From NCBI GenBank assembly GCA_018710945.1, contig DVIW01000038.1, positions 124,001-188,000 on the forward strand: DNA of 64,000 nt, in the 5' to 3' direction. The position numbers were made by a program, and so were the translations under genes. Source of the DNA: Candidatus Aphodovivens avistercoris (GTDB lineage Bacteria > Actinomycetota > Coriobacteriia > Coriobacteriales > Eggerthellaceae). A model generated the notes under the pieces. It saw only the letters and a list, made by a program, of their open reading frames with translations, searched no databases and was not told where the DNA came from. Positions 5,299 to 41,187 of this stretch are shown here, one piece after another; the stretch's first letter is position 1, and each line of letters starts with the position of its first letter.

Positions 5299-5904
5299 AT
5301 GCCGAAGAAGGCGAAGCGGTCGGGCAAAACGCGCGCGCAGCGGGCGGCCGCGGCGCGGCGGCGCACGGCGTTGCGCGAAGGGGCGGTGTGGCACCAGTCC
5401 GCCGAAGAGGCGGCGCTTGCCGTGAAGCCGCGTTACAACGGCTACGCCTGCGGGCACGGCGCGCACGGCAACGCCAAATACGACCGCACGCGCGAGAAGA
5501 GGGAATGGAAACGCCAGCTGAGACAGGAAGGGGCCTTGCGGGGCCCCTTCCCCGTTTTGGAAGACGCCCCGCCGCCAAACAGCGGAGCAGCAGGAACCAG
5601 AGCAGCAACCGAGCAACCGGAGACGCCGGCGAAGCGGCCAAGCCATCCTGCTATGGTGCCGCACGTGAGTCCGGCTGGCTTCGCCGCATCCCATCGCCCG
5701 CGGCCGTGCCGTCCTGCCACGCACGGGCACCCCTCCCTGAAACAATCCCCGCAGCGCTTTCGTGCTGCGGGGATCGCTTGGCTGCGCTCGCCGAACGGGC
5801 CGGCGAACAGGCAGCGGGCAGCTAGCCGATCAGCTCGGCCAGCGTCTCGACCTGCGTGCGGGCCTGCTCGTAACTCTCGGTGGACTGGTCGATCTCCACC
5901 GTGA
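5299..5904 (+). CDS. small basic protein of unknown function, apparently without its own stop
   Basis: The ATG at 5299 has a strong GGAGGTGA site and a TATACT box 36 bases upstream. The first 76 residues look genuine: a Lys/Arg-rich start (MPKKAKRSGKTRAQR), then KPRYNGYACGHGAHGN and YDRTREKREWKRQLRQEG. The frame then runs straight through a strong terminator hairpin (5526-5551) without a stop, continues as Pro/Arg-rich low-complexity sequence, and ends at 5904 inside the opposite-strand dehydratase gene. The natural end was probably just before the hairpin, with the stop lost by mutation or a frameshift; a TGA is present in another frame at about 5518. No function can be assigned. Confidence 0.4.
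   Translation: MPKKAKRSGKTRAQRAAAARRRTALREGAVWHQSAEEAALAVKPRYNGYACGHGAHGNAKYDRTREKREWKRQLRQEGALRGPFPVLEDAPPPNSGAAGTRAATEQPETPAKRPSHPAMVPHVSPAGFAASHRPRPCRPATHGHPSLKQSPQRFRAAGIAWLRSPNGPANRQRAASRSARPASRPACGPARNSRWTGRSPP
5526..5551 (+). terminator. rho-independent terminator after the small gene at 5299
   Basis: Perfect 10-bp arms GGAAGGGGCC and GGCCCCTTCC around a 6-nt loop, followed by CCGTTTT on the plus strand. It lies inside the open frame of the small protein, which argues that the frame originally stopped before it. Confidence 0.7.
5745..5774 (-). terminator. rho-independent terminator of the dehydratase operon
   Basis: Perfect 11-bp arms ATCCCCGCAGC and GCTGCGGGGAT around an 8-nt loop. 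On the minus strand it is followed by TGTTTC and lies about 50 nt after the stop of the dehydratase beta gene. Confidence 0.75.
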
Positions 5905-6952
5905 TGCACTTCAGGCCGGCTTCGCGCACCGCGCGCGTGGCCAGCGGCGCCTCGAACTCCTCGGGGTCGCAGAACTTCGCCAGCAGGATGACGACGGCGT
6001 CCGCGCCAGCGTCCTTCGCCTTCTGCACCAGAGCGCCGAGATGCTCCTTCTTCGGATCGTACAGCTCGGTGTCGGCGCGCAGCCCGCACCAACCGTCAGC
6101 CAGCGCCTCGATGGCGTCGCCCTCCTCGGGCACCTGGCGCGCGAACGCGCGGGATTCCTTCGCCAGATCGTCGGCGACCACGGCGATCTTGTTGTCGTCC
6201 AGGATGGAGGTGATGGCCGGGATGTCCTCGTAGATGCCCGACAGCACCACCTTGCGGTAGCCCTCCGTCGAAGCCGGCAGCTCGGCCAGGGCGGCGTTGA
6301 GCTGGCGCACCTGCTCAAGATGCTCGGCCTTGTCCATGTAGTAGCCGGCGTTGATCACGGCAACGCGAGCGGCGTTGCTCACCTCGGCCGGATGGTTGCC
6401 CGCCAGCGTCACGAACTCGCGCATCGCGGCGCGCCACTGGTTGTACAGCTTGATGGCAGACATCAGGTCGGCGTCGTCGATGATGGTGTCGCAGCATTCC
6501 TCCACGCGGCGCTTCACCTCGGTGTAGGCCTCCACCGTGTAGGTGCGGCCCGCGTCCAGGAAGCGGTTCTGCGCGTTGGTGACGTAGATCATGGGCACCT
6601 TGTTGCCCATGGCGGCCTTCCAGTTCTGGGACGACGCGCGCAGCGTGTCGCACAGGCCGGTGATCATCATGCCGGACAGCTTGTCCAGGATGCCCTTCAG
6701 GCCCATCTCCAGGGTCGTCTGGCAGATGGAGCAGTAGAACGGCGGGTAGTACTTCTTGGCGTTGTCGGCCGTGCCCACCATGCCCCACACGCCGAACGGA
6801 ACGGCGCCGGCGGCGTACACCAGCTCCTCGGGCACGTGGTAGGGGCCCACGCCGATGACGCGCTTGCCCGCAGCCAGATGCTTGTCCAGCTCCTTGCTCG
6901 GATGGGCCGCCACCTCGGAGAAGGCGTTCAGCAGAGATGCGATGTCAGCCAT
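5822..6952 (-). CDS. 2-hydroxyacyl-CoA dehydratase, small (beta) subunit
   Basis: 376 residues of the HgdB/FldC/LcdB family. Cysteines at 74, 77 (CSICQ) and 101 (TGLCDTLR) plus a C-terminal Cys in AKFCDPEEF are candidate [4Fe-4S] ligands. With the alpha subunit it forms the cytoplasmic dehydratase that removes water from (R)-2-hydroxyacyl-CoA through a ketyl radical. The ATG at 6952 lies 2 bp beyond the alpha-subunit stop and its GGAGG site is inside the end of that gene, so the two are translationally coupled. A terminator follows at 5745-5774. The substrate (lactyl-, phenyllactyl-, hydroxyisocaproyl-CoA or another) cannot be read from sequence alone. Confidence 0.93.
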   Translation of the reverse strand: MADIASLLNAFSEVAAHPSKELDKHLAAGKRVIGVGPYHVPEELVYAAGAVPFGVWGMVGTADNAKKYYPPFYCSICQTTLEMGLKGILDKLSGMMITGLCDTLRASSQNWKAAMGNKVPMIYVTNAQNRFLDAGRTYTVEAYTEVKRRVEECCDTIIDDADLMSAIKLYNQWRAAMREFVTLAGNHPAEVSNAARVAVINAGYYMDKAEHLEQVRQLNAALAELPASTEGYRKVVLSGIYEDIPAITSILDDNKIAVVADDLAKESRAFARQVPEEGDAIEALADGWCGLRADTELYDPKKEHLGALVQKAKDAGADAVVILLAKFCDPEEFEAPLATRAVREAGLKCITVEIDQSTESYEQARTQVETLAELIG

Positions 6953-6954
6953 GG

Positions 6955-8181
6955 TTACGCCTCCTTCTTGTTGGATTCCATGATCTCAACCAGGCCCTGG
7001 ACGCGCGTGACGTACTGGGCCTCGCTGAAGTTGCGCGGGTCGGACTGGTCGCCGTCGAAGGTGACCACGGGGATGTTCAGGTCGCTGGAAATGCGGCGCG
7101 CCATCTCGGGCGCGATGCCCGACCACATCTTGCAGGAGCGGTTCACGTGCACCAGGCCGCCGTCGACCTTGCCGTCCAGGCACAGCTGCTTGCGCAGCTC
7201 CACGGCGCGCTCCAGGTTGATGGCGTTGGGCACCTCGGCGTAGGCGCGCATCATCTCGTCGGTGTTGCTGTAGATGAACGCGAAGGAGGGGCCGTACACG
7301 CAGGCCGTCACGTTGGTGCCGGCGTTCTTCAGCGTGGAGTAGGTCACGCGCAGGTACGGCCAGGTGGCGATGCCCTCGAACATGATGCGGTTCTTCTCTT
7401 CCACCTTGAACGTGGAGGTGTGGTTCTTCACCGCCTCCTTGTACTCCTCAACCAGCGCGGTGAACGCATCGAGGCTCTCCTGCTTGCCGCGCGCCATCGT
7501 GGCCACAGCCATGTGGTTGAACAGGTCGTAGCCCTTCAGCGGCGAGGGCTTGTAGTTCATGTACGTGGTGGCCTCCAGCCACTTCTCGCCCACCGCGTTG
7601 GAGATCTCGCAGACCTTCAGGAACTTCTCCTCGTCCCAGGTCTTGCCCGTGATCTCGCACAGCTGCTCGATGGCGGCGTCGAACTGGCCGCGCATGTAGG
7701 CGATGCGCTTGGCGTCGGCGCTGTACTTGTCGTTGAACGGCACGTCGATCATGATCAGCGGGATGTTCAGCTCATGCGCCAGGTTCTCGTACCAGTTCAT
7801 CATGCAGTTGCAGATGTTGTTGCAGCACAGCACGAAGTCCGGCAGCGGCATCTCGCGCTCGCCGTTGGGGCACTTGCCCAAATCGGCGTAGGCCAGGCTG
7901 ATGCGCGCGTAGGCGCACAGGTCGTTGGAATAGCCCAGCTCGCCTTCCGCATGCTCGCACATGGCAAGGCCGGCGCCCTTCGCGGAGATGGCGGCCGCCT
8001 GGCTTTCGGGGTACACCACGTGCAGCCCCAGCGTCTCGGGAATCTCCTGCGGGAAGTTGGACGAGATCCAGCCCACCTTCTCGCCGCGCGCCTTGGCGGC
8101 AAGCGCGTCGTCGTACACGCTGCCAGCGATCTTGGCAAGCCACTTGCCCGCCGGCAGCTTCTCAGCAGTCTCTTCTGCCAT
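6955..8181 (-). CDS. 2-hydroxyacyl-CoA dehydratase, large (alpha) subunit
   Basis: 408 residues of the HgdA/FldB family. Candidate cluster ligands are Cys75, Cys89 (SNDLCAYAR), Cys119/120 (LCCNNIC) and the Cys of NRSCKMWSG near the C-terminus. It pairs with the downstream subunit, and is activated by the ATPase at 950-1738. The ATG at 8181 has a GAGGGGGAT site. It is separated from the upstream CoA-transferase gene by 237 bp that contain a perfect hairpin (8384-8411). The gene order CoA-transferase, alpha, beta is the one seen in fld- and had-type amino-acid-derived hydroxyacid pathways, which supports assignment to the same pathway. Confidence 0.93.
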   Translation of the reverse strand: MAEETAEKLPAGKWLAKIAGSVYDDALAAKARGEKVGWISSNFPQEIPETLGLHVVYPESQAAAISAKGAGLAMCEHAEGELGYSNDLCAYARISLAYADLGKCPNGEREMPLPDFVLCCNNICNCMMNWYENLAHELNIPLIMIDVPFNDKYSADAKRIAYMRGQFDAAIEQLCEITGKTWDEEKFLKVCEISNAVGEKWLEATTYMNYKPSPLKGYDLFNHMAVATMARGKQESLDAFTALVEEYKEAVKNHTSTFKVEEKNRIMFEGIATWPYLRVTYSTLKNAGTNVTACVYGPSFAFIYSNTDEMMRAYAEVPNAINLERAVELRKQLCLDGKVDGGLVHVNRSCKMWSGIAPEMARRISSDLNIPVVTFDGDQSDPRNFSEAQYVTRVQGLVEIMESNKKEA

Positions 8182-8383
8182 GTAATCCCCCTCTTGTGGA
8201 TTGATGGATACGGCTAGAAACAGTTGCTTCCAGGTTGAAGGAAGACCTCCGGGTCAAGCCAACGTCAGCGAGCGGGAGCGTGGCGAGCGCGGATGGCGTG
8301 AAAGGTGTCCGTTGCGGCCTTCGGGCCGTGAGGAAACCTTGGAGCGCCAGCCGTGCCGCCAGGGCCCCGCGCAGCGTCGGCCC

Positions 8384-8411
8384 GTTGCGCCGTTCGGCAG
8401 AACGGCGCAAC
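8384..8411 (-). other. perfect hairpin between CoA-transferase and dehydratase genes
   Basis: 12-bp perfect arms GTTGCGCCGTTC and GAACGGCGCAAC with a 4-nt loop, starting 7 nt after the CoA-transferase stop on the minus strand. There is no T-run, so it may be a partial terminator, mRNA stabiliser or processing site that sets the ratio of transferase to dehydratase. Confidence 0.6.
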
Positions 8412-8418
8412 CCACAAG

Positions 8419-9663
8419 CTACTTGCGCTCGCCCTGCGTGATGACGCCCTCGTCCTCCATGGCCTTGATCTCCTCGGCGGAGTAGCCCAGGGAGGCCAGC
8501 ACGTCCTCGGTGTCCTCGCCGATGAGCGGGGCCTTCTCGTAGGGCGGCAGCGGCGTCTCCTCGAAGGTGACGGGCACGCGCACGAGCGCCTTGGGGCCGC
8601 GCGGGTAGTCCATCTTGTAGAACACGTCGTTGGCCCAGGCCTGCTCGTCGTCGACGATCTCGGCGTAGGTCTTGCACAGCGCGTAGGGGATGTCCAGCTC
8701 GGTGAGGATGGGCTCCCACTCCTCCACGGTCTTCTGCTTGAAGCCGTCCTGGATGATGTCGTACAGCTCGCCCTGGCGATGCGCCTCGATCATGGCCTTC
8801 TGGTTGCTGAACACCGGGTCCTCGATGAGGTCCTCGCGGCCGATGGCCTGCATGATCTTCGGGAAGTAGATGGAGTAGTTCGGGCCCATGACCTGGAAGA
8901 AGCGGCCGTCCTTCGTCTCGACGGCGGGCTGGTAGGGCAGCTGGTTGTCGCGGCGGTCGAACGGGAACACCTGGCCACCGAACTCGGTGCCGTACTGGGC
9001 CGCCTGGATGGAGAAGCCCTGCACCCAGATGGCGGTGTGCAGCAGGTTGGTGGTCACCTTCTCGCCCTTGCCGGTGCGGGCCTGGCGGTACAGCGCGGCC
9101 AGCACGCCGGTGGTCAGCGCCAGCGCGCCCTGGTGGTCGCCGAGCGCCGGGATCAGGTTGGTGGGCACGGTGCCGCGCTGGAACAGCGAGCCCGCCCAGC
9201 CGGAACGCGCGAAGAACGCGGTGAAGTCGAAGCCGGGCAGATCCTTGTCGGGACCCTTCTCGCCGAAGCCGGTCAGGCTGGCGTACACCAGGCGCGGGAA
9301 CTTGTCCTTCAGGTCGTCATAGGTGAGATGCTTGCGCTCCAGCGCCTGCGGGCGCCAGTTGGTCAGCAGCACGTCGGCGTCCTCCAGCAGCTTGAACAGC
9401 ACCTCGACGCCCTTCTCGGTGCGCAGGTCCACCACGATGCCCTTCTTGTTGGCGTTCTCAAGGTCGATGGTGAGGTCCTCGTGCGGATCGCTCGGACGGC
9501 CCTCGTTGGCCGCCGTGTAGCGCAGGTTGTCGCCCTTGGCCGTCTCGATCTTGATCACCTCGGCGCCCATGTCGGCCAGGATGCGGCCGACGGCGGGCAC
9601 GGCGATGAACGTCGCCAGCTCGATGACCTTGACGCCCTCCAGGGGACGCGCGTTGTCTGCCAT
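8419..9663 (-). CDS. family III (CaiB/BaiF) CoA-transferase, FldA/HadA-like
   Basis: A 414-residue family III CoA-transferase. Family members move CoA between an acyl-CoA and a free acid through an aspartyl-CoA thioester. The catalytic Asp is visible as Asp146 in PGFDFTAFFARSG. In fld/had pathways the homologue loads CoA onto the (R)-2-hydroxyacid using the enoyl- or acyl-CoA product as donor. The ATG at 9663 has a strong GGAGG site. It is the first gene of the dehydratase transcription unit and has its own promoter at 9769-9831, shared in design with the acyl-CoA dehydrogenase gene. The four CoA-transferases at 31-41 kb differ at the Asp position. Confidence 0.92.
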   Translation of the reverse strand: MADNARPLEGVKVIELATFIAVPAVGRILADMGAEVIKIETAKGDNLRYTAANEGRPSDPHEDLTIDLENANKKGIVVDLRTEKGVEVLFKLLEDADVLLTNWRPQALERKHLTYDDLKDKFPRLVYASLTGFGEKGPDKDLPGFDFTAFFARSGWAGSLFQRGTVPTNLIPALGDHQGALALTTGVLAALYRQARTGKGEKVTTNLLHTAIWVQGFSIQAAQYGTEFGGQVFPFDRRDNQLPYQPAVETKDGRFFQVMGPNYSIYFPKIMQAIGREDLIEDPVFSNQKAMIEAHRQGELYDIIQDGFKQKTVEEWEPILTELDIPYALCKTYAEIVDDEQAWANDVFYKMDYPRGPKALVRVPVTFEETPLPPYEKAPLIGEDTEDVLASLGYSAEEIKAMEDEGVITQGERK

Positions 9664-30251: not shown

Positions 30252-31526
30252 CTACGCCGCCCGCGCCTGCTCCTCCATATCGGCGTACGCCTGAGGCTTC
30301 TTGGAGATCAGAACGAACACCAAGGAGACGAGCAGCATCACGATGGCAACCCAGAATGCGATGTTGTAGCTGGAGAAGCCGGCGACAGCGGAGACTCCCG
30401 GCACGCCGATGATGTCGCCCACGGTGCGCAGACCGAACACGACGCCCCAGATAGCGCCGAAGTACGCCATGCCCATATAGCGGCCCAGCAGAACCGTGAC
30501 GCACGGAGTCCAGCAACCGACGCCCACGCCGAAGATGACTGCGTAGCCCATCAGCCACGGCAGCGTGGAGGTCTGCGTGGTGAAGTTGAGGATGAGGGTG
30601 CCGACTATCAGCATGATATTGCCGATGCAGAACACGATTTTGGCATCCATACGGTCGACCAGCCAGCCGAAGAACAGCTTGCCGATAACTCCGCACATGC
30701 CCACAACTCCCAGAGCGGTTGCTGCGGTCTGAGGATCGAATTGGATGTCGGTAAGATAGGCGGCGGCGTTTTGCATGACGCCAAGCTGGCCGAAGCCCAA
30801 GAACAGCAGCGCGATGGAGATAAGCCACAGAGCGGGAGTCTTCATCGCCTGTTCGCGGGTAAGGCCAACGGAAACAGGACGCTCTTTGGCGGGCAGGGCA
30901 TCGTATTCTTCTTTAGTCAGGCCGTCGGGCATCAAACCGATATCCTGCGGCTTGGTCTTGATGAGCAGCGCGGCGAGGATCATGAGCACCAACGCGATCA
31001 CGCCGATGGTGAGGAACGCCGTGGAGGTGCCGGAGCTTGCCAGAACGTTGCCGATAAGCGGAGTGGTGGTGATGGCCGCGATACCGCCGCCGCAGTTAAC
31101 GATGCCAACCGCAAGGCCCTTGCGCTTATCGAACCATGCAGCGGGAAGCGCCCCGCCGATAACCGGGCCTCCCAGAGCGCCGCCCAAACCGATAAGGGCG
31201 TAGACAATGTAGAAGGCGATGATGTTGTTCACGAACGACATCGCAATGAAACCACCGCCGAACAGGATGGCGCTGGCGAACAGCATCGGCTTCAAGCGGC
31301 CTTTGGCGATCTGCGCACCCGCGATGGGGCTTATGACCGCGAACATGATGGTGTAGATGGACGATGCCACGGTGATGGATGTGCGCGGCGCATCGAACAT
31401 GGTGGACATAGGCACCACGAACAGGCTGAACGTATAGATCAGCAGACCCGTCGTGACGAACTGGGTGATGAAGGTGGCGATAATGACCACCCAGCCGTAA
31501 TAAAAGCCTTTCTTATTCTCTGCCAT
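30252..31526 (-). CDS. MFS transporter, OFA (oxalate/formate antiporter) type
   Basis: 424 residues, about twelve helices, with the family start FYYGWVVIIATFITQF and the loop motif LPAAWFDKRKGLAVGI between helices 4 and 5. Members exchange or import organic anions. The ATG at 31526 has GGGGGA. It is the third gene of the minus-strand unit CoA-transferase (34073), CoA-transferase (32844), MFS (31526), and is closed by a terminator. It probably imports the acid that the two transferases charge with CoA. Confidence 0.88.
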   Translation of the reverse strand: MAENKKGFYYGWVVIIATFITQFVTTGLLIYTFSLFVVPMSTMFDAPRTSITVASSIYTIMFAVISPIAGAQIAKGRLKPMLFASAILFGGGFIAMSFVNNIIAFYIVYALIGLGGALGGPVIGGALPAAWFDKRKGLAVGIVNCGGGIAAITTTPLIGNVLASSGTSTAFLTIGVIALVLMILAALLIKTKPQDIGLMPDGLTKEEYDALPAKERPVSVGLTREQAMKTPALWLISIALLFLGFGQLGVMQNAAAYLTDIQFDPQTAATALGVVGMCGVIGKLFFGWLVDRMDAKIVFCIGNIMLIVGTLILNFTTQTSTLPWLMGYAVIFGVGVGCWTPCVTVLLGRYMGMAYFGAIWGVVFGLRTVGDIIGVPGVSAVAGFSSYNIAFWVAIVMLLVSLVFVLISKKPQAYADMEEQARAA

Positions 31527-31596: not shown

Positions 31597-32844
31597 CTAA
31601 AGATGCGAGTCGTAGTCCAGCAGGCGCCTCACCACGCGCTTCTCGACAAGCGCGGCGATTTCCTGATCGGTCATGCCAAGGCGATTCTTCAGGATCTGAA
31701 CCGAGTGCTCTCCCAGATACGGGGACGCAGTCGTCTCGGGCACGGGAGTCTTCTCGAAGCGCCAAGCCGGTCTCATCACGTATTCCTTGCCGAGATCACG
31801 GCTGTCGATCGCATACCAAGCCTCGCGTTCGCGACGATGGGGATCCTCATGCAGGCCCTTGCCGTTGTAGACCCAACCGGAAGGCACGCCGGCAGCCTGC
31901 AGCTTCTCCACCACTTCGGAAGCTTCCTTGTCCTTGGTCCATGCGGTGATGATCTCGTCGAGCTCGTCGGCATGGGAGAAACGATCTTCATAGGTGGCAA
32001 AACGTTCATCCGATGCAAGCTGCGGATTGCCGATCGCCCTGCAAAGCGATTCCCACTGCTCCTGCGTCTCCACGGAAACCGTTGCCCATTGATCGTCTCC
32101 CAGCACACGGTAGGCACCCTGCGGAGCATAGCCATGGCGACGGTTCGCCATGGGACCTTGGTTGTGCCCGTTGACCGAGTAATCGAGGTAGAACTCGCCC
32201 AGCTGCGCCGCGATGGCCTCCTGCGACGAGATCTCGATGTACTGCCCGAGACCTGTCTTCTTCCTGTGGTAGAGCGCCGCCAACAGCGCGATAGTCGCGA
32301 AACTTGCGCTGCGGATGTCAATGGAACCGACGAACGTGCTAGGCGGATACCCCTCGTAGCCCGTCAACGCGCCCAATCCCGCTTTCGCTGCGAAGGTGGC
32401 GGCGTACCCGATGAAATCGCGCTCGGGCCCGTCTTCGCCGCACGCCGATGATGACAGGTAGATGATATCGGGTTTGCGCTTACGCACTTCCTCGTACCCG
32501 AAGCCCAAGCGTTCCATGGTGCCTGCCGACATGTTCTGCGTGATGACGTCGGTATCCTCGATCAGCTTCCAGAGGATCTCCTTGCCCTCTTCCTGCTTGA
32601 AGTCGAGAGCGAGCGACTGCTTGCCATAGTTGTTGACGTCGTAGGTCTGAGATCCCGCAGTGCGCGGGTCGGGCGGCAGCTGCTTCGGGGAAGTGAGGAA
32701 GAAACGCGTGCCGTCTGGTCTGAGCGGGTGCTCCACCTTGATGACCTCTGCGCCGAGGAACCCCAAGAACTCCGCTGCAGCCGGCCCCGCCATGAAGGCG
32801 CCGAAATCGAGGATCTTCACCCCTTCGAGAATCTGCTTGCTCAT
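31597..32844 (-). CDS. family III CoA-transferase, subunit type B (copy 1)
   Basis: 415 residues, CaiB/BaiF fold, N-terminus GVKILDFGAFMAGPAAAEFL and GAEVIKVEHP. It is paralogous to the protein at 39943-41187 (both share RFFxTSPxxxPPDPR, SxCGxEGPxRxFxGYAATFA and the C-terminal RRVxDYD). Aligning by hand with the transferase at 8419, the catalytic Asp position (GFD) is Ala148 in GYAATFAAKAG. The ATG at 32844 has an excellent GGAGGTGA site and lies 17 bp after the type A gene. It therefore probably forms a heteromer with the type A protein, as BbsE and BbsF do. Confidence 0.88.
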   Translation of the reverse strand: MSKQILEGVKILDFGAFMAGPAAAEFLGFLGAEVIKVEHPLRPDGTRFFLTSPKQLPPDPRTAGSQTYDVNNYGKQSLALDFKQEEGKEILWKLIEDTDVITQNMSAGTMERLGFGYEEVRKRKPDIIYLSSSACGEDGPERDFIGYAATFAAKAGLGALTGYEGYPPSTFVGSIDIRSASFATIALLAALYHRKKTGLGQYIEISSQEAIAAQLGEFYLDYSVNGHNQGPMANRRHGYAPQGAYRVLGDDQWATVSVETQEQWESLCRAIGNPQLASDERFATYEDRFSHADELDEIITAWTKDKEASEVVEKLQAAGVPSGWVYNGKGLHEDPHRREREAWYAIDSRDLGKEYVMRPAWRFEKTPVPETTASPYLGEHSVQILKNRLGMTDQEIAALVEKRVVRRLLDYDSHL

Positions 32845-32861
32845 CTGCTTCACCTCCCTGT

Positions 32862-34073
32862 CTAGATAACGTTGTCGTTCCTGTAGGCGGCGATCTGCTC
32901 GTCGCTGCAGCCCAGCGTTTCCTTCAGCACGCTTTCCGTATCGGCGCCCAAAAGCGGGGCAGGAGCGAAGGAGAGCGGCGTTTCGGACATGTTGAACGCC
33001 TTGCCCGGATAGGAAACCTCCCCTATCGCCGGATGGGACATCGGCGTGAAGAACTTGCGGTAGGCGAACTGCTCCGACTCGACGACATCTTTCGGCGTGC
33101 TGACCGGCCCCATGGGGATATGGTTCGCCTGGAGGATCTCCACCGCCTCCGCCGTCGTGTACTGATCTGCCCATTCCTGGATCGCGTCAGCGATCTTCTG
33201 GTGGTTCTGACGGCGCTCGGCGATGTTGTTGAACCAAGGCTCGTCGATCCATTCCTCCTTGCCCATGACCCTTGCCATCGAAGCGAACTCATGGGTTTGG
33301 GTGAGGAACGGATTCAACCAGCCGTCTTTGGTCTTATACGAAAGACTCGCCTGCAGCTTTTGCACTGCGCCTTGCCTGTCGAAGGTCATGCCGAACACGG
33401 GGTACGGGGCGTTCTCGTTTTGCAGCAGCATCACGCGGGCTTCCTGCTCGGAAATCTCCAGATACTGCCCTTCTCCACCGGCCTCCCGCCAATACAGGGC
33501 GGCTATCGCCCCGATGGCGATGACGGTTCCCACATCGTATTCCTCGAAGTTGCCGCCCAGCATGCACGGAGCAAGGTGCTGGGCTCCGGAACCGTGGGGG
33601 TATAGCGCTGTGTTTCCGCACATATGCGTTACCGTGAAAGGCGTTGCCGCATAGTCCTTGTACGGGCCGCTCTCGCCGAACGGCGTCACCGAAACGCAGA
33701 TCAGGTCGGGATTCGCCGAAGAAACCGTCTCGTATGACAGGCCCCGCCCGTCCCACGCTTCCGGCTGTCCCTGGCGAATCCAGATATCGGCTCCCGCAAC
33801 CAGGCTCCTTAGGATGTCGCACCCGCCCGGCGAATCGATATCGACCGTCACGCTTTTTTTGCTCGAGTTCACATACAGAAACATCAAGCTTTTCTCCGGA
33901 TCGCTTTCGCCTTTGGCAAACGGAGCCACATGGCGAAGCTTGTCGCCGACTCCCGGCCGCTCGACCTTGATCACCTCGGCACCCAGATCAGCGAGCATCT
34001 TCCCTGCAAACGGAATGCCGATGCCCTCGGTCGTCTCGATGACGCGAACGCCGGAAAAAACACCTCCTGCCAT
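32862..34073 (-). CDS. family III CoA-transferase, subunit type A (copy 1)
   Basis: 403 residues, CaiB/BaiF fold, with GKMLADLGAEVIKVERPG near the start and FGESGPYKDYAATPFTVTHM in the active-site region. It is paralogous to the protein at 38716-39933 (shared APFxxGxxDxEKSL, CGNTALYPHG / TGNCALYPHG, GGNFEEYD). The position of the catalytic Asp is Pro145. It heads a three-gene unit with the type B transferase and the OFA transporter. The ATG at 34073 lies behind GGCAGGAGGTG-poor sequence with AGGAGAGG about 9 bases upstream. Substrate unknown. Confidence 0.88.
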   Translation of the reverse strand: MAGGVFSGVRVIETTEGIGIPFAGKMLADLGAEVIKVERPGVGDKLRHVAPFAKGESDPEKSLMFLYVNSSKKSVTVDIDSPGGCDILRSLVAGADIWIRQGQPEAWDGRGLSYETVSSANPDLICVSVTPFGESGPYKDYAATPFTVTHMCGNTALYPHGSGAQHLAPCMLGGNFEEYDVGTVIAIGAIAALYWREAGGEGQYLEISEQEARVMLLQNENAPYPVFGMTFDRQGAVQKLQASLSYKTKDGWLNPFLTQTHEFASMARVMGKEEWIDEPWFNNIAERRQNHQKIADAIQEWADQYTTAEAVEILQANHIPMGPVSTPKDVVESEQFAYRKFFTPMSHPAIGEVSYPGKAFNMSETPLSFAPAPLLGADTESVLKETLGCSDEQIAAYRNDNVI

Positions 34074-34192
34074 ACCTACTCCTCTCCTTGCCTGAATGAA
34101 ATCGGCCTTTTCGGAAGGCTTGGCCAGATGGTAGGCAATTCGGAGAGAAGCTTCGCCCCGCCCGCTTTATGAAAGTGCTATTTCGCGAGTAC

Positions 34193-34201
34193 GTTATGAG
34201 G
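34193..34201 (-). promoter_or_regulatory. CCTCATAAC motif upstream of the type A/B CoA-transferase operon
   Basis: The 9-mer CCTCATAAC reads on the minus strand 120-128 bp before the start at 34073. The identical 9-mer lies at 35886-35894 on the plus strand before the Mo-enzyme gene. Rest of 34074-34260: no gene; AT-rich, promoter-like. Confidence 0.5.
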
Positions 34202-34260
34202 TCATACCATCTGTATGCAGATAGGCGAAAGACCTGATGAAGGATAATGAGCGCCGCGCG

Positions 34261-35766
34261 CTACATCCTTTTCCTCTCGTAGCTGTCAATGAAGTCGAGG
34301 AGCTCCTGCTGCGAGTGGACACCCAGCTTCTGGTATACGGTGTAAATGTGGCTTTTGGCTGTGTTCGACGAGATCACCAGCTCCCGCTCGATCACCGATG
34401 CGTTTCTCCCCTTCGCCAGCATCGAAAGGACTTCCGTCTGTCGCGCCGAAAGCCCATGGTCCTCCGCGATGGACTTGATGAGGGCGCTGACAACGACTGC
34501 ATCGGAATACGACTGCCCCGATCCCCTCTTCTGGGTGGGAATGGTATAGGTCTCCGGCTTCTTCTCGAAATCGACGCTGCAGACCAATGTCACGAAAGCC
34601 AAGATGACAACAAATCCCCAGAACACGAGAGGCTTGCTTGCCTCGTCCAGCAAGCCGAACACCTCCAGTGCGGTCCAAAACCCCAACCCGCACGCCATTC
34701 CCACCACATTGGCCAAGCATTCTATGGAATACAGGAAGAAGAACCGCCCCTCGAAGGCGTTGGTGCATTTCAGAGTCTTCCTAACGCACTGATCGAGATG
34801 TAGCAGCAGGAAGGCGACCAGCAAAATGAGCGCCAGCACCAACAGCGGCTCGGAATCGAAGAAGAACACGACCCCTGCAGAAAGAAGCAGAAGGCACAGC
34901 AGGATCATCGCATTCGTGGGGATCGTGCGCCTGAAGACGAACAGGTTGGCGAAAAGCCACGCGCTAGCGATGAAGCACCCTCCTCCTAGGGCAAAAGCGA
35001 GGGCGCTTCCCGTCAGAGAATGCCCGGGAAGGTGGGCGAAGCATATGCCGTAGGCGATGCCGTACGCCCCCGTGAACACCACCAGCTTCACAAAGGACGT
35101 CCTCTTCTCGTACACGCGCTTCATGCTCACGAACGGAGGGAATTCATCTTCGAACATCAGCGACGCCTTCACGAAGCAGCCTGCAGACAGGAAGGGGAAC
35201 AAGGCTATCACGACGCGATCCGCCCCGACGGAGCTCAGGAACATGACGCAGAAGAACAGGAGGGATCCCGCAAACGACGCCACCATCGCGTGGAAGCCGA
35301 TGCGCCGCATGGGGAACACCGCCAACCGACAACCCCACACTAGGACGAGCCCGCCGTTCCCCGCTCCGGCGACCAGCCAAGATAGAAGAAGGATCCCATC
35401 GTCGGACAAGGGGATCACCAGCGGGACGAAATTCGAGAGGGACAGGACCGCCGAGGCGAAAGCCACACCTGCGTAGATCTTCCGACTGAAATGCACGAAT
35501 GTCCGGTTGAACACCAAAAGGAGCAGGAACACCAACGCGGCTCCGCCAAGGAACGCCATGACAAGGTAGTTCGCATCGAACGGACGATCGAACTGCGCAT
35601 AAGGCCGATAGATGACGTTCGCCAGCAAACCCGCCACGAACAAGGCGATGCCCGCTAGATCCGCAAACGAGAAGGCTGCCTGAAACTCGATTTTGGAGTT
35701 CTTGCTCGAATCCGAAAGCTCGACCGTCCTGCTCAAAGTGACGGAAATGCTTCTCCTGCCGTGCAT
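34261..35766 (-). CDS. membrane-bound LuxR-family regulator of the second island
   Basis: 501 residues: about twelve hydrophobic segments (residues 25-410), then a LuxR HTH (GLSARQTEVLSMLAKGRNAS, NTAKSHIYTVYQKLGVHS). The ATG at 35766 is preceded by GGGGAGG; an in-frame ATG at 35802 is less well supported. It lies between the two CoA-transferase pairs, read away from the Mo-enzyme operon. The shared CCTCATAAC motif on both sides (34193-34201 and 35886-35894) is a candidate binding site. By analogy with related Eggerthellaceae regulators it would sense the substrate in or near the membrane and activate the adjacent catabolic genes. Confidence 0.87.
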   Translation of the reverse strand: MHGRRSISVTLSRTVELSDSSKNSKIEFQAAFSFADLAGIALFVAGLLANVIYRPYAQFDRPFDANYLVMAFLGGAALVFLLLLVFNRTFVHFSRKIYAGVAFASAVLSLSNFVPLVIPLSDDGILLLSWLVAGAGNGGLVLVWGCRLAVFPMRRIGFHAMVASFAGSLLFFCVMFLSSVGADRVVIALFPFLSAGCFVKASLMFEDEFPPFVSMKRVYEKRTSFVKLVVFTGAYGIAYGICFAHLPGHSLTGSALAFALGGGCFIASAWLFANLFVFRRTIPTNAMILLCLLLLSAGVVFFFDSEPLLVLALILLVAFLLLHLDQCVRKTLKCTNAFEGRFFFLYSIECLANVVGMACGLGFWTALEVFGLLDEASKPLVFWGFVVILAFVTLVCSVDFEKKPETYTIPTQKRGSGQSYSDAVVVSALIKSIAEDHGLSARQTEVLSMLAKGRNASVIERELVISSNTAKSHIYTVYQKLGVHSQQELLDFIDSYERKRM

Positions 35767-35885
35767 GAGACCTCCCCTTCTCCGCTGCAACGTCACTTCC
35801 ATTCTTCCCATCGGCGATGCGGGAGACAACCTTCACGCATCATTATTGAGAACCGCGAACGCCTCTTCAGTACGAGAGCATGATC

Positions 35886-35914
35886 CCTCATAACCATCGC
35901 ATTATCCCCTCATG
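35886..35914 (+). promoter_or_regulatory. tandem CCTCAT motifs upstream of the Mo-enzyme operon
   Basis: CCTCATAAC (35886-35894) is followed 22 bp later, two helical turns, by CCTCATG (35908-35914), about 140-168 bp before the ATG at 36054. The surrounding 35767-36053 has no gene. Confidence 0.5.
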
Positions 35915-36053
35915 CTATCCGTTTTCCACGCCATCTCGCCAATGGATCCTAGTTAATGTGCCGCAGCGTCCAAAGTTAGCGAGTTCCGGAGGATGCCAAC
36001 GCGAAACGTCCCGCCTAGACTGCATCGCAACTCGACAAGTGAGAGGAGGACGC

Positions 36054-38246
36054 ATGACCGTCAAAAAGACGAGGACGATTTGCACCACCTGCCATACGCG
36101 GTGCGGCGCGATCGTCTACACGGAGGGGGACAAGATTATCAAGATCGAAGGCGATCCCGACAATCCCTTGTCCCGAGGATCGTTCTGCGGTAGCGGTATG
36201 TCGGAACGCGAGATCCACAACGACACCGAGCATCGCATCATCTACCCCATGAAACGCGTCGGAGAGCGCGGATCCGGGCAGTGGGAGCGCATCACCTGGG
36301 ACGAAGCGCTCACGACGATGACCGACAAAGTGCGCGAGATCCAAAAGGATTACGGGCCGGAATCCATCATCGTAGCCCAAGGAACAGGCAGAAGCTGGAA
36401 CCACTGGCATTGCCGCTTCGACTCAACCCTTGGCCAGGAGGGATGGGGCCTTATCCCCACGCACGTGTGCCTTATGCCGCACATTCTGCCGAATGCCCTG
36501 ACATTGGGCGTGTTCAGTCCAGGCGTCGGCCAGTACAACAAATCGAACATGAACGTCGTGTGGGGCCAGAGCCCTTGCAGCACGCTGCGATCCAGCATGA
36601 AGACGATTCTCGGCAGGAAGAAGGCAGGCGGTAAACTGCTGGTCATCGACATCCGCTACACCGATTTCGCCAAGAACGCCGACCTGTATATCCGCCCGCG
36701 CCCCGGCACCGACGGCGCGCTGGCGCTGGGGATCATGAACCAGATCATCGAGAAGGGCTATTACGACCGCGACTGGATCGACAAATGGACCTACGGTTTC
36801 GACGAGCTAGCCGAGCGCGTGAAGGAGTGGACCCCGGAGAAAACCTCCGAGATAACCTGGGTTCCCGCCGAGCAGATCGTCGAAGCGGCGGAGATGCTGG
36901 GGACGAACGGCCCCACTTCGTTCCTCATCTCGCTTGGGCCCGGCTGCATGCATACCAACGCGATCCAAAACGGTCGCGCTATCGCCTGCCTCCAAGGCTT
37001 GCTGGGCCATCTCGACGTGAAAGGCGGCCTGCCCATCAACATGGCATTCGATGTCATGCTGGACGACCGGATCACGCTGTGGGATCCCGAGAAGAACCCG
37101 GGGCGCGAAGACCTGTTCGTCTTCGGCGGCGACCGCAAGCCTTTGTTCAAGTTCTTCGGACGGGCCGCCGAGCCCCGTTCGGTGTGGAAGGCGATCATCA
37201 CAGAGGAACCGCGTCCGGTGAAGATGCTTGTCATGGTCGCGAACGATCCTTTGCTCTGCTATGAGGATTCGAACCTCGTTCACGAAGCGCTCACCAGCCC
37301 CAACGTCGATCTGATCGTGTCGAAGGACTTCTACATTTCCCCGTCTTCCAAATACGCCGACATCCTGCTCCCCTCTTCCGACTGGGCCGAGCGCGACACC
37401 ATCGACGAAGAATACTTCGGGAACAACGTCTTCGCAGCGCAGCGTGCGGTAGACCCGCCGGGAGAGTGCTGGGACGATTGGAAGTTCTTCCTAGAGTGGG
37501 GCAAGCGGCTGAACCCCGAGCAGTGGCCATGGAAGGACGAGAAGGAGATGGTGCTTTGGCGCCACAAGGAGTTCTACGGCTTCGACCACACCTGGGAGGA
37601 ATACGTGGAGGGCGCCTACTGGCCCACCATCGACCCCAGCCAGCGCGCTTGGAAGAAATACGAGAAAGGCATGCTGCGCCCCGACGGCCAGCCCGGTTTC
37701 AATACCGCGACGGGCCGCATAGAGTTCTGGTGCAACACCTTGGCCGCCTTCGGATACGATCCCCTGCCGGACTACACCGAGCCCATGGAAAGCCCTTATT
37801 CGCAACCGGAACTTGCCAAGGAATACCCGTTCATTCTCACCACGGGGCATCGGCTGTACTCCTTCTTCCACTCGGCATGGACGAACATCCCCGCGCAACG
37901 CGAGCTGTACCCCTACCCATTCGTGGTCATCAATCCCAAGGATGCCAAGAAGCTCGACATCTCCGAAGGCGAATGGGTCACCATCGAGACCCTGCGCGGC
38001 GCGGTTTCCGCCAAGGCGCGCGTCACCTACGAGATCGGCGAAGGCGTGATAGCCCTTCCCCGCCCCGGCTGGCGCGATCCATGTCCCGAGCTCGGACTCC
38101 CCGGATACAGCTGGGATGGCGCGAACCCCAACGTGCTCATCCCCTCGGAACCCTCGGAACCGGCATACGGCGCAACGGCGATGAGATCGTGCCTGTGCCG
38201 CGTGAAGAAGGGTATGAAGGAAGGGATGGTTGAGATCTATGACTAA
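36054..38246 (+). CDS. molybdopterin oxidoreductase (DMSO-reductase family), cytoplasmic
   Basis: 730 residues. An N-terminal [4Fe-4S] site is formed by Cys10, Cys13, Cys17 and Cys45 (TICTTCHTRC, GSFCGSG). The molybdopterin domains follow, and a C-terminal dinucleotide-binding domain has INPKDAKKLDISEGEWVTIE and PRPGWRD. A candidate Mo ligand is Cys139 in PTHVCLMPH. There is no Tat signal, so unlike many Eggerthella homologues it stays in the cytoplasm. The ATG at 36054 has GAGAGGAGGA. Its stop overlaps the ferredoxin gene, and two CoA-transferase genes follow. It could be a reductase, dehydroxylase or a non-redox hydratase/hydroxytransferase of the acetylene-hydratase kind; the substrate is unknown, perhaps a CoA ester. 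Confidence 0.9.
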   Translation: MTVKKTRTICTTCHTRCGAIVYTEGDKIIKIEGDPDNPLSRGSFCGSGMSEREIHNDTEHRIIYPMKRVGERGSGQWERITWDEALTTMTDKVREIQKDYGPESIIVAQGTGRSWNHWHCRFDSTLGQEGWGLIPTHVCLMPHILPNALTLGVFSPGVGQYNKSNMNVVWGQSPCSTLRSSMKTILGRKKAGGKLLVIDIRYTDFAKNADLYIRPRPGTDGALALGIMNQIIEKGYYDRDWIDKWTYGFDELAERVKEWTPEKTSEITWVPAEQIVEAAEMLGTNGPTSFLISLGPGCMHTNAIQNGRAIACLQGLLGHLDVKGGLPINMAFDVMLDDRITLWDPEKNPGREDLFVFGGDRKPLFKFFGRAAEPRSVWKAIITEEPRPVKMLVMVANDPLLCYEDSNLVHEALTSPNVDLIVSKDFYISPSSKYADILLPSSDWAERDTIDEEYFGNNVFAAQRAVDPPGECWDDWKFFLEWGKRLNPEQWPWKDEKEMVLWRHKEFYGFDHTWEEYVEGAYWPTIDPSQRAWKKYEKGMLRPDGQPGFNTATGRIEFWCNTLAAFGYDPLPDYTEPMESPYSQPELAKEYPFILTTGHRLYSFFHSAWTNIPAQRELYPYPFVVINPKDAKKLDISEGEWVTIETLRGAVSAKARVTYEIGEGVIALPRPGWRDPCPELGLPGYSWDGANPNVLIPSEPSEPAYGATAMRSCLCRVKKGMKEGMVEIYD

Positions 38247-38580
38247 CGAGGAGAAGAAGCCCATCGGGATGCTGCTCGATTACGAGATGTGCTCGGGCTG
38301 CTATACCTGCCAGACCGCCTGCAGGGAAACCAACCACTACGGCTACGACGAGCAGTGGATGCAGGTAATTCGCAGGGATCCCTATTTCGTCGACGGCAAA
38401 CTGCGCATGTACCATCTGGTAGCTCCCAGTTTGGACAAATGCGCCCAATGCTACGAGAACGATCCCGACACCCTCTGCACGAAAACCTGCTCTTCCGCCG
38501 CGCTGTTCGTCGGTCCTGTCGACGAGCTGCTCCCCGAGATGCAGGGACGCAACGCCGCGCTGTTCGTGGCGGCATCGTAA
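38239..38580 (+). CDS. ferredoxin-type small subunit of the Mo enzyme
   Basis: 113 residues. The clusters are indicated by CSGCYTCQTAC (about residues 22-32) and CAQCYENDPDTLC with a following CTKTC (about 71-87), enough for two [4Fe-4S] sites but shorter than the usual four-cluster DmsB-type subunits. It overlaps the Mo-enzyme stop by 8 bp, so production is coupled one to one. It probably passes electrons between the Mo subunit and a soluble donor or acceptor; no membrane anchor gene follows. 38581-38715 carries only weak hairpins. Confidence 0.88.
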   Translation: MTNEEKKPIGMLLDYEMCSGCYTCQTACRETNHYGYDEQWMQVIRRDPYFVDGKLRMYHLVAPSLDKCAQCYENDPDTLCTKTCSSAALFVGPVDELLPEMQGRNAALFVAAS

Positions 38581-38715
38581 AACGATTGGAGGAGGGCCGA
38601 AAAACGGACCCTCTTCCAATGCTTCGGGCATACCGCAAGAAGGCAGATCTTCGCGCGGCATGCCCGGATCCCGCGCGAAAGCGCGGATTCCATACTTCGA
38701 CAGAACGGAGGCACC

Positions 38716-39933
38716 ATGGCACACAAGGCATTCGAAGGCATCCGGGTCATCGAGCTGGCGGAGAGCGTGGGCGTTGCCTACGCCGGCAAGCTCCTTGCCG
38801 ATCTGGGTGCCGAAGTCATTAAAGTGGAGAAGCCCGGCGAGGGCGATCCCGCACGCCACCGCGAACCGTTCGCGGGAGGAACGCCGGACAAGGAGAAAAG
38901 CCTTCTGTTCGCCTACGCGAACACGAACAAGAAAAGCGTCGCCGTCGACACGTCCGTCGAAGAAGGCGCCGCGTTGGTGCGCAAGCTCGTCTGCACCGCC
39001 GACGTGTTCCTACGGGAGGGCTTGCCCGAGACCTTCGACGGCAACGGCCTTTCCTGGGAATCGCTTAGCAAGGACAACCCGAAGCTGATCCTGTCCTCCA
39101 ACACGCCGTTCGGCGAAAGCGGGCCGTACCGCAACTACGCATCGACGCCGTTCACCCTTGCTCACATGACCGGGAATTGCGCCCTTTACCCGCACGGAAC
39201 CGGAGACGAGGAGCGTGCGCCTGTCATCCTCGGCGGCAATTTCGAGGAATACGACACGGGAGTGGCAGTTGCCTCGGGCGTCGTCGGGTCGCTTATCTGG
39301 CGGCTGCGCAGCGGCAAGGGGCAATACATAGAGAACTCGTCGTACGAGGCGCGTCTGATGAGCCTGCCGTCCGAGAACTCCGCCTATCCGGTATTCGGCG
39401 TCAACTTCAACCGTTCGGGGGCCACGCAGCGCCTGCAGGCAAGCTTGTCCTTCCCCACCAAGGACGGATGGCTGTGCCCCTTCCTCACCACGCCGAAGGA
39501 CTTCGCCAATATGGCAGATATCATCGGAAAGCCCGAATGGAAAGACGAGGAGTGGTTCACCGACGTCCCGCAGCGCCAAGCGAATTGCGAGAAGATCATG
39601 GAAGCCATGCGTGAGTGGAGCAAGGATCTCACCACCGCCGAAGCCGTGGATATCTGCCAGTCGCGCCGTGTCCCCATCGGCCCGGTGGCAACACCCAAAG
39701 ACGTCGTCGAGTCCGAGCAGTACAACCAGCGCGGCTTCTTCACCGAGATCGATCACCCCGCCATAGGCAAAGCGAAATTCCCCGGCAGGCCAGCGGTGCT
39801 CTCCGAAACGCCTTTCTCTTACGACCATGCCGCACCTTTGCTGGGCGCCGACACCGAGGAGATCCTGAAGGAAGTCGCCGGCGTTTCAGACGATCAATTC
39901 AACAGCCTTGCCCAGAGCAAGGTCATCGGGTAA
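38716..39933 (+). CDS. family III CoA-transferase, subunit type A (copy 2)
   Basis: 405 residues, CaiB/BaiF fold, paralogue of 32862-34073 along its whole length. The active-site region reads FGESGPYRNYASTPFTLAHM, with Pro145 at the usual Asp position. The ATG at 38716 has ACGGAGG. It lies 135 bp behind the ferredoxin gene and 9 bp before the type B gene, so copy 2 of the A/B pair belongs to the Mo-enzyme operon while copy 1 belongs to the transporter operon. Confidence 0.88.
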   Translation: MAHKAFEGIRVIELAESVGVAYAGKLLADLGAEVIKVEKPGEGDPARHREPFAGGTPDKEKSLLFAYANTNKKSVAVDTSVEEGAALVRKLVCTADVFLREGLPETFDGNGLSWESLSKDNPKLILSSNTPFGESGPYRNYASTPFTLAHMTGNCALYPHGTGDEERAPVILGGNFEEYDTGVAVASGVVGSLIWRLRSGKGQYIENSSYEARLMSLPSENSAYPVFGVNFNRSGATQRLQASLSFPTKDGWLCPFLTTPKDFANMADIIGKPEWKDEEWFTDVPQRQANCEKIMEAMREWSKDLTTAEAVDICQSRRVPIGPVATPKDVVESEQYNQRGFFTEIDHPAIGKAKFPGRPAVLSETPFSYDHAAPLLGADTEEILKEVAGVSDDQFNSLAQSKVIG

Positions 39934-39942
39934 GGAGCTGAC

Positions 39943-41187
39943 ATGACCGACACCATCCTCAAAGGCATCCGCGTCCTGGACTTCGGCACCTACCTCGCCG
40001 GAGCCGCGACCACCATGCACCTCGCTCGCCTTGGCGCCGAGGTGATTAAGATCGAGCACCCAACCCGCCCGGACGGAGGGCGTTTCTTCTCCACCTCCCC
40101 CGGCGTGAAGCCGCCCGATCCGCGCGTGGGTTCCCAGCTTTTCGACACGGGGAACGTGGGCAAACTGGGAATGTCCATCGACCTATCCAAGCCTGAAGGC
40201 AAGGAAGTGCTGACGGAGCTGATCAAGCAGGCTGACGTGTTCTACGAGAACATGGTCCCGGGATCGATGGCGAAGCACGGCTTCGACTACGAGCACGTTC
40301 GCGAGATCAAACCCGACATCATCTACGTCTCTTCATCCTCTTGCGGACAGGAAGGGCCATTCCGCAATTTCGTGGGATACGCCGCCACGTTCGCGAACAT
40401 GTCCGGCTTGGGGGCGTTGACCGGATACGAAGGATCCCGCCCGAGCATCTTCGTGGGCTCCATCGACATGCGCAGCGCCAACATCGGCTTGGTGGCCATC
40501 TTGGCGGCAATCTACCATCACGAGATCACCGGCGAGGGGCAGTTCGTCGATATCGCCTCCGTCGAGGCGATCGCCTCCCATTTGGGCGATGTGTATCTCG
40601 ACTACACGGTGAACGGGCATGAGCAGGGCCGCATGGCGAACAAGCGCTCCGGTTTCGCCCCGCAGGACGCCTACCCGGCACTTGGAGACGACCGTTGGAT
40701 CGCCATATCCGTCCAGACCGAAGACCAGTGGCGCAACCTCTGCGAGGCGATGGGGCAACCCGAACTAGCGGATGATGCCCGCTTCTCCAGCTATGAAGCG
40801 CGCGTCGAGAATGCCGCTGCGCTGGATGCCATCATCTCCGCATGGACAAGCGGCATCGACCGCGATGAGATCGTGAAGCAATTGCAGGAGAGGAACGTCC
40901 CCTCGTCGCCGAGCCTGAACGGCGAGGGAGTATGGACCAACGAGCATTGCCGAGCGCGTGGGGTGCACGTCCCCATCGAGCACCGCGAGCTGGGCACCGA
41001 TTACACGATGTGCCCGCCGTGGCGCTTCAGCGAAACCCCGGCATCGTTCAGCCACCCGGCGCCGATGCTGGGCGAGCACACCACCATGCTCCTCAAGGAT
41101 CTTCTCCATATGACCGACGCCCAGCTTGACGAGCTGGCGGAGAAGCGCGCGATTCGCCGCGTGTTCGATTACGACAACCCGTTCTAG
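39943..41187 (+). CDS. family III CoA-transferase, subunit type B (copy 2)
   Basis: 414 residues, paralogue of 31597-32844, with GIRVLDFGTYLAGAATTMHL at the start and CGQEGPFRNFVGYAATFANM in the active-site region; Ala147 replaces the catalytic Asp. The ATG at 39943 follows AAGGAG. It is the last gene of the plus-strand unit Mo enzyme, ferredoxin, type A, type B, closed by the terminator at 41218-41249. A and B are in the same order in both operons, which supports an A-B complex with a fixed ratio. Confidence 0.88.
   Translation: MTDTILKGIRVLDFGTYLAGAATTMHLARLGAEVIKIEHPTRPDGGRFFSTSPGVKPPDPRVGSQLFDTGNVGKLGMSIDLSKPEGKEVLTELIKQADVFYENMVPGSMAKHGFDYEHVREIKPDIIYVSSSSCGQEGPFRNFVGYAATFANMSGLGALTGYEGSRPSIFVGSIDMRSANIGLVAILAAIYHHEITGEGQFVDIASVEAIASHLGDVYLDYTVNGHEQGRMANKRSGFAPQDAYPALGDDRWIAISVQTEDQWRNLCEAMGQPELADDARFSSYEARVENAAALDAIISAWTSGIDRDEIVKQLQERNVPSSPSLNGEGVWTNEHCRARGVHVPIEHRELGTDYTMCPPWRFSETPASFSHPAPMLGEHTTMLLKDLLHMTDAQLDELAEKRAIRRVFDYDNPF

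Follow-up and report, generated by a model that had tools for sequence, protein, structure and literature searches.

Two pairs of CoA-transferase subunits, which at first sight lack the catalytic aspartate of their family, flank a regulator and a molybdenum (Mo) enzyme in Candidatus Aphodovivens avistercoris. This raises the question whether these proteins are able to transfer CoA at all, and what they would have to do with the Mo enzyme. Here, a stretch of 64,000 nucleotides (nt) of contig DVIW01000038.1, called the window in the following, was analyzed and all coordinates are window positions. An earlier note on this DNA had described four genes of family III CoA-transferases, A (32862..34073, minus strand) and B (31597..32844, minus strand) in the operon of a major facilitator superfamily (MFS) transporter as well as their paralogues A' (38716..39933, plus strand) and B' (39943..41187, plus strand) in the operon of the Mo enzyme, and had concluded that no subunit carries the catalytic Asp. 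The four genes are indeed present at these positions as open reading frames (ORFs), and the PF02515 profile is covered over its full length with 281–333 bits (A 291.7, B 322, A' 281.6 and B' 332.8 bits; cut-off 23.3). In both operons the A gene precedes the B gene, with 17 nt between A and B and 9 nt between A' and B'. The two types are paralogues as described, A and A' being 57% and B and B' 53% identical. For B, the longest ORF (31597–33174) represents B with an over-long start, and the start of B lies at 32844.

The catalytic residue is a different matter. Alignment to the solved enzymes of the family indicates that the "missing" Asp results from the choice of a wrong alignment column, and that B and B' keep the nucleophile.

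The nucleophile of the CoA-transferases

For CaiB, Asp169 has been reported as the catalytic residue, which is conserved in formyl-CoA transferase (FRC) and YfdW (PMC9196870). Here, residues 140 and 169 of FRC and YfdW were placed via residue-numbered PDB alignments of E. coli YfdW and the formyl-CoA transferase of O. formigenes, the placement of the Asp being based on sequence alignment to these solved enzymes. The residues quoted in the earlier note are correct and share one column, which holds Pro145 of A and A', Ala148 of B, Ala147 of B' and Asp146 of a further transferase encoded at 8419. However, this column corresponds to Glu140 of YfdW and FRC, and BbsF of the heteromeric enzyme BbsEF has a Gly there. 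The nucleophile Asp169 follows 29 residues later, and its column holds an Asp in B (Asp176), B' (Asp175) and the 8419 protein (Asp176), as well as a Glu in both A and A' (Glu178).

This assignment of the nucleophile column was identical in three MAFFT modes (131 rows), and the column of Asp175 of B' is invariant across all 25 F-type (BbsF-like) rows. Within BbsEF, residue 178 is an Asp in BbsF and an Ala in BbsE, and the column of BbsF D178 is the one containing Asp176 of B and Asp175 of B'. The PDB entry 9fol is entitled 'BbsEF, D178-CoA adduct'. Since only BbsF has an Asp at this position, the CoA adduct of the solved heteromer is located on the residue that is retained by B and B'. A pairwise MAFFT alignment of B' and BbsF, in which Ala179 lies opposite D178 together with a five-residue gap, was discarded because all multiple alignments and the phmmer alignment give Asp175. 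On the earlier note's own terms its central oddity falls with the Asp predicted in the active site of B and B'. Loss of catalysis should not be deduced from a Pro or Ala at the position of Glu140, which removes a false puzzle.

Assignment to the BbsE and BbsF types

The heteromer idea of the earlier note, a BbsE/BbsF-like enzyme present as a duplicated pair that is split over the MFS and the Mo-enzyme operon, is well supported. A and A' reach 409 and 416 bits with the E-type (BbsE-like) profile vs. 288 and 274 bits with the F-type profile, and B and B' reach 460 and 458 bits with the F-type vs. 276 and 286 bits with the E-type profile. In a PDB search, BbsF is the top match of B' (190.8 bits), while for A and A' there is little difference in match strength between BbsE and the single-chain SUGCT. 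AlphaFold models were obtained for A' and B' with a predicted local distance difference test (pLDDT) score of 85.5 and 80.0, respectively. Their top VIA structure matches are all family III enzymes, with a Z of 37 for A' (root mean square deviation 3.3, 392 residues aligned) and of 40 for B' (root mean square deviation 3.3, 393 residues aligned). Since these predicted folds fit family III enzymes in general about equally well, the E/F assignment was drawn from sequence profiles and trees and not from the folds. At the level of sequence, the assignment of A and A' as BbsE-type and of B and B' as BbsF-type subunits, and with it the enzyme class, is well supported.

Phylogenetically, A and A' are sisters and so are B and B', each with a support of 100 in two trees, therefore the pair was duplicated as a unit. 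The tree obtained with a site-mixture model places A and A' among the E-types (support 94, not starred) and B and B' among the F-types of Chloroflexota (support 99). The genome encodes six PF02515 proteins, namely the four described here, the 8419 transferase and one on another contig.

In common with BbsEF, the window pairs consist of two adjacent PF02515 subunits with the E-type first and the nucleophilic Asp solely in the F-type subunit, and B' is nearer to BbsF than to any other protein in the PDB. In contrast to BbsE, which has no acid in the nucleophile column, A and A' contain a Glu. Furthermore, two copies lie beside a Mo enzyme in the window, whereas BbsEF is encoded in an operon for benzylsuccinate beta-oxidation. 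BbsEF in the strict sense uses succinyl-CoA and benzylsuccinate. The identity of the window proteins to BbsEF is about 30%, a level at which the substrate is not inferable.

Paired subunits in other genomes

The E-type signature S[INV]TPFG[ERQ][ST]GP was scanned over 84,980 species genomes and yielded at least 80 loci, mostly in Dehalococcoidia and other Chloroflexota. Among the matches listed, to which all counts in this section refer, 48 adjacent pairs have a first gene bearing the signature, mostly from Chloroflexota; these are mutually related and do not represent 48 separate events. The second gene has an Asp in the nucleophile column in 48 of 48 pairs, which is an independent result since loci were selected by the E-type signature and by no feature of the partner gene. 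The first gene has an Asp in 12 pairs and another residue in the remaining 36 (Glu 9, Tyr 8, His 7, Gln 5, Ser 3, Gly 2, Pro 1 and Phe 1). E-type subunits are thus commonly devoid of the nucleophile, and their F-type partner has the Asp throughout this sample. Four pairs (L058, L064, L066 and L096) display the residue set of the window, with Pro and Glu encoded by the first gene and Ala and Asp by the second.

The E-F order is constant across several phyla. Natural E-F fusions of ~800 residues are present at at least about 20 loci (L059, L061, L127 and others), with an E-type N-terminal half and an F-type C-terminal half. The BbsEF of Aromatoleum toluvorans (L131) shows the same pattern and was recovered by the E-type scan as a natural positive control. 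The fusions and the constant pairing support the view of one two-subunit enzyme, and paired CoA-transferases of this kind appear to be widespread in Chloroflexota and merit description as a class.

The Chloroflexota pairs and arrays (for example L058, L064, L066 and L062) share the order and the complementary residues with the window pairs and are the nearest tree neighbours of B and B'. They differ from them in being only 33–43% identical, and no dehydroxylase-type Mo enzyme is encoded in the stretches read, in which weak matches to Mo families occur in L106 and L120.

Some further observations were made among these loci. One Dehalococcoidia metagenome-assembled genome (MAG) contains five E-F pairs in a row, i.e., ten genes (L062, 1–12153). 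In two Dehalococcoidales loci (L088, 3012–7511 and L103, 544–4944) the E-F pair is followed by an MFS gene, an order as in A-B-MFS, and the MFS protein is 25–28% identical to the one of the window. According to the tree, a MAG labelled Bordetella parapertussis (L076) has an E-F pair near-identical to that of unnamed betaproteobacteria, and the label may be wrong. Three plasmid matches from tblastn (H1, H4 and H16; Azospirillum, Tistrella and Rhodococcus) were rejected as A-like since they have an Asp in both columns.

The Mo enzyme, its partner and the regulator

The second operon starts with the gene of a bis-molybdopterin guanine dinucleotide (bis-MGD) Mo/W enzyme without leader peptide (36054..38246, plus strand), whose start is most likely at 36054 rather than at 35880. 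By comparison, it belongs to the acetylene hydratase/catechol dehydroxylase group; catechol dehydroxylases act on plant compounds, from which they reductively remove a hydroxyl. Its top PDB match is acetylene hydratase (2e7z, 284 bits), and the next match has 189 bits. Acetylene hydratase uses Asp13 as catalytic residue. At the second cluster Cys, 2e7z has the motif CQSCD and the window enzyme CTTCH, and the His is found in 17 of 17 homologues compared. An acetylene hydratase was therefore rejected as identity of the enzyme, since the catalytic Asp13 is replaced by His.

The downstream gene overlaps that of the Mo enzyme and encodes a small [4Fe-4S] electron-transfer partner (38239..38580, plus strand) with eight Cys in two groups, for which the match to DmsB-type ferredoxins is weak (34 bits). 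Divergent from this operon lies a LuxR-type regulator (34261..35829, minus strand) with about 11 hydrophobic segments in a Kyte-Doolittle scan and a C-terminal GerE helix-turn-helix (PF00196, 46.6 bits, residues 460–512), hence the multi-transmembrane class. The MFS transporter is the third gene of the A-B-MFS operon (30252..31526, minus strand; PF07690, 164 bits) and is of the oxalate-formate/monocarboxylate type; its top NCBIfam match is the L-lactate MFS model SfMCT with 152.8 bits, which is under the cut-off of that model.

A leaderless Mo enzyme, a small Fe-S protein and an MFS transporter constitute the layout of the Gordonibacter-type subtype of catechol dehydroxylases (PMC7028382; PMC11887054), and in E. 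lenta multi-transmembrane LuxR regulators activate such enzymes (PMC9734109). The window shows the features of this layout, an acetylene-hydratase-related bis-MGD subunit without a leader for twin-arginine translocation (Tat) and a small Fe-S partner. Judged by gene content, Mo enzyme, Fe-S protein and multi-transmembrane LuxR regulator share their layout with catechol dehydroxylases of the Gordonibacter type. Like Dodh and Cldh, the locus has a leaderless acetylene-hydratase-related bis-MGD subunit, a small [4Fe-4S] partner and an MFS gene nearby (PMC7028382), and in contrast to them its Mo operon has A'-B' downstream. The locus can thus be described as a dehydroxylase-type unit to which two E-F pairs have been added.

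Homologues of the Mo enzyme with 56–65% identity are present in 15 other Eggerthellaceae genomes among 137 searched. The Mo gene is contained in all 18 stretches read around such homologues, and the small Fe-S partner (49–57% identical) was called beside 15 of the 18. A CoA-transferase was found in the ORF calls around none of the 18, two of which are paralogues from the own genome and several of which lie on short contigs. One own-genome paralogue (G000:C40:3253-5424) has one in-frame TAA reported. What keeps the locus interesting is that E-F CoA-transferases stand beside a dehydroxylase-type Mo enzyme, a combination not seen elsewhere in the sample.

Proposed function and alternative explanations

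We consider it likely that A-B and A'-B' are two duplicated copies of one heteromer of the BbsE/BbsF kind, in which B and B' provide the nucleophile and A and A' are the partners, and which would cycle CoA together with the Mo enzyme. In such a system, the MFS protein would import a carboxylic acid, and one or both pairs would transfer CoA to it, with either the reduced product or a central acyl-CoA as the donor. Asp176 of B and Asp175 of B' would attack the donor acyl-CoA, giving the covalent aspartyl intermediates known from other members of family III, before CoA is passed to the acceptor acid. A and A', in which the nucleophile is lost and a Glu occupies its column, would complete the site in a structural and substrate-shaping role, like that of BbsE beside BbsF. 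Reduction of the acid, probably as CoA thioester, would then fall to the dehydroxylase-type Mo enzyme in the cytoplasm and its small Fe-S partner, and CoA would be exchanged onto the next acid, so that the cycle would run without ATP cost. The LuxR regulator would sense the substrate and switch on both operons. Physical A-B complexes, the substrate, the shared regulation and the tie to the Mo enzyme are parts that we infer, and it is gene order that suggests a Mo enzyme working on a thioester.

The earlier note had assigned the charging of the imported acid to one pair and the unloading of the product to the other. This division is not required since one CoA-transferase exchange does both. The presence of two pairs would rather point to two acids or to two steps in succession. 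More specifically, CoA thioesters may be the substrates of this Mo dehydroxylase of the catechol group, and two heteromeric CoA-transferases dedicated to it may pass CoA between its product and the imported acid, possibly for two successive steps or two acids; this proposal is possible but has to be regarded as tentative. If the link to the Mo enzyme is true, dehydroxylation in Eggerthellaceae may reach beyond free catechols to CoA-activated acids. A similar logic, though not membership, is known from CaiB of carnitine metabolism, where a family III enzyme exchanges CoA between product and substrate in a reductive anaerobic pathway. CaiB is the product of a single gene, whereas in the window a Mo enzyme is accompanied by two heteromeric pairs.

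Several points weigh against the proposed CoA-cycling heteromers. With no CoA-transferase at the other dehydroxylase loci read, the functional tie between A/B and the Mo enzyme amounts to co-location in one genome. Glu178 of A and A' might share in catalysis. In a quicker first tree, which contained a long-branched row, A and A' fell outside the E clade and beside that row. Finally, the relatives are distant (33–39% identity for A and A', 38–43% for B and B'), which counts against inference of the substrate.

The alternative that survives best, although we regard it as unlikely, is that the pairs are ordinary CoA-transferases serving the upstream acyl-CoA genes and lie beside the Mo enzyme by chance. 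The stretch of low G+C content around them (about 18–41 kb) contains a FadD-like ligase (25424) and an acyl-CoA dehydrogenase (27350), and the E/F pairs of L131 and L106 adjoin acyl-CoA dehydrogenases as well. On the contrary, A'-B' lies downstream of the Mo and Fe-S genes on the same strand, and A-B forms an operon with the MFS gene beside the divergent LuxR gene, as in substrate-specific dehydroxylase units. This point is weakened by strong hairpins (-73.7 kcal/mol over 38570–38720, z -6.6) in the 135 nt that separate A' from the Fe-S gene (38581–38715). This gap is single-copy in the genome and could be a site at which the transcript is attenuated or processed between the Mo-FeS and A'-B' genes.

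Clearly less probable is a second nucleophile in the form of Glu178 of A and A', which would give each heteromer one Asp-based and one Glu-based active site. Glu178 does occupy the position of the nucleophile, where a helix predicted at 177–199 begins; nine first genes of the E-F pairs also have a Glu there, and type I CoA-transferases use a Glu (PMC9196870). However, the Tyr, His, Gln, Ser, Gly, Pro or Phe of other E-types beside a constant partner Asp point to a relaxed constraint on this column, and BbsE has no acid there, the adduct of 9fol being on a residue 178 that is Asp in BbsF only. An Asp169Glu variant of FRC has been crystallized (PDB 1vgr).

Even less credit can be given to A and B being separate homodimers with different substrates that are adjacent due to tandem duplication. 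Most solved family III enzymes are single-gene products, but the pairing in constant order in several phyla, the natural fusions and the complementary residues speak against it. That no subunit has the catalytic Asp, and that the pairs use a new nucleophile or have a function other than CoA transfer, can hardly be maintained. Pro and Ala do occupy the column of the earlier note, but this is the Glu140 column of FRC with a Gly in BbsF itself. At the true position of the nucleophile, B and B' carry an Asp whichever alignment mode is used, as do all 25 F-type rows.

Origin of the locus

Above the set limits, type A was found in the own genome only among 137–138 Eggerthellaceae, 396 Actinomycetota and 398 class-level genomes (overlapping samples), and type B in the own genome only among 137 Eggerthellaceae. 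A pattern scan of genome contigs for A and A' alone (GNFEEYD, EW[KI]DE[EP]W) gave zero relatives, and a scan of viral contigs gave nothing beyond three distant relatives of 26–30% identity. From about 18 to 40 kb (17949–41187) the G+C content is 54–61% in 2 kb steps vs. 63–74% elsewhere. The confinement of type A to the own genome among the sampled genomes and the low G+C content suggest that the locus was acquired from outside. The Buk and Pta genes flanking the low-G+C island are absent from two congeners, thus no empty site is demonstrable, and no tRNA is present in the window.

Neighbouring genes

The low-G+C stretch also encodes a VOC protein, an MFS protein, a CocE hydrolase, a PucR regulator, AcpS, a protein of metallo-beta-lactamase (MBL) fold and a CrtI-like flavoprotein. 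Further upstream (5822–9663), two subunits of a 2-hydroxyacyl-CoA dehydratase are encoded beside the 8419 CoA-transferase, which has an Asp in the nucleophile column, and this region is likely a separate acid-reducing unit.

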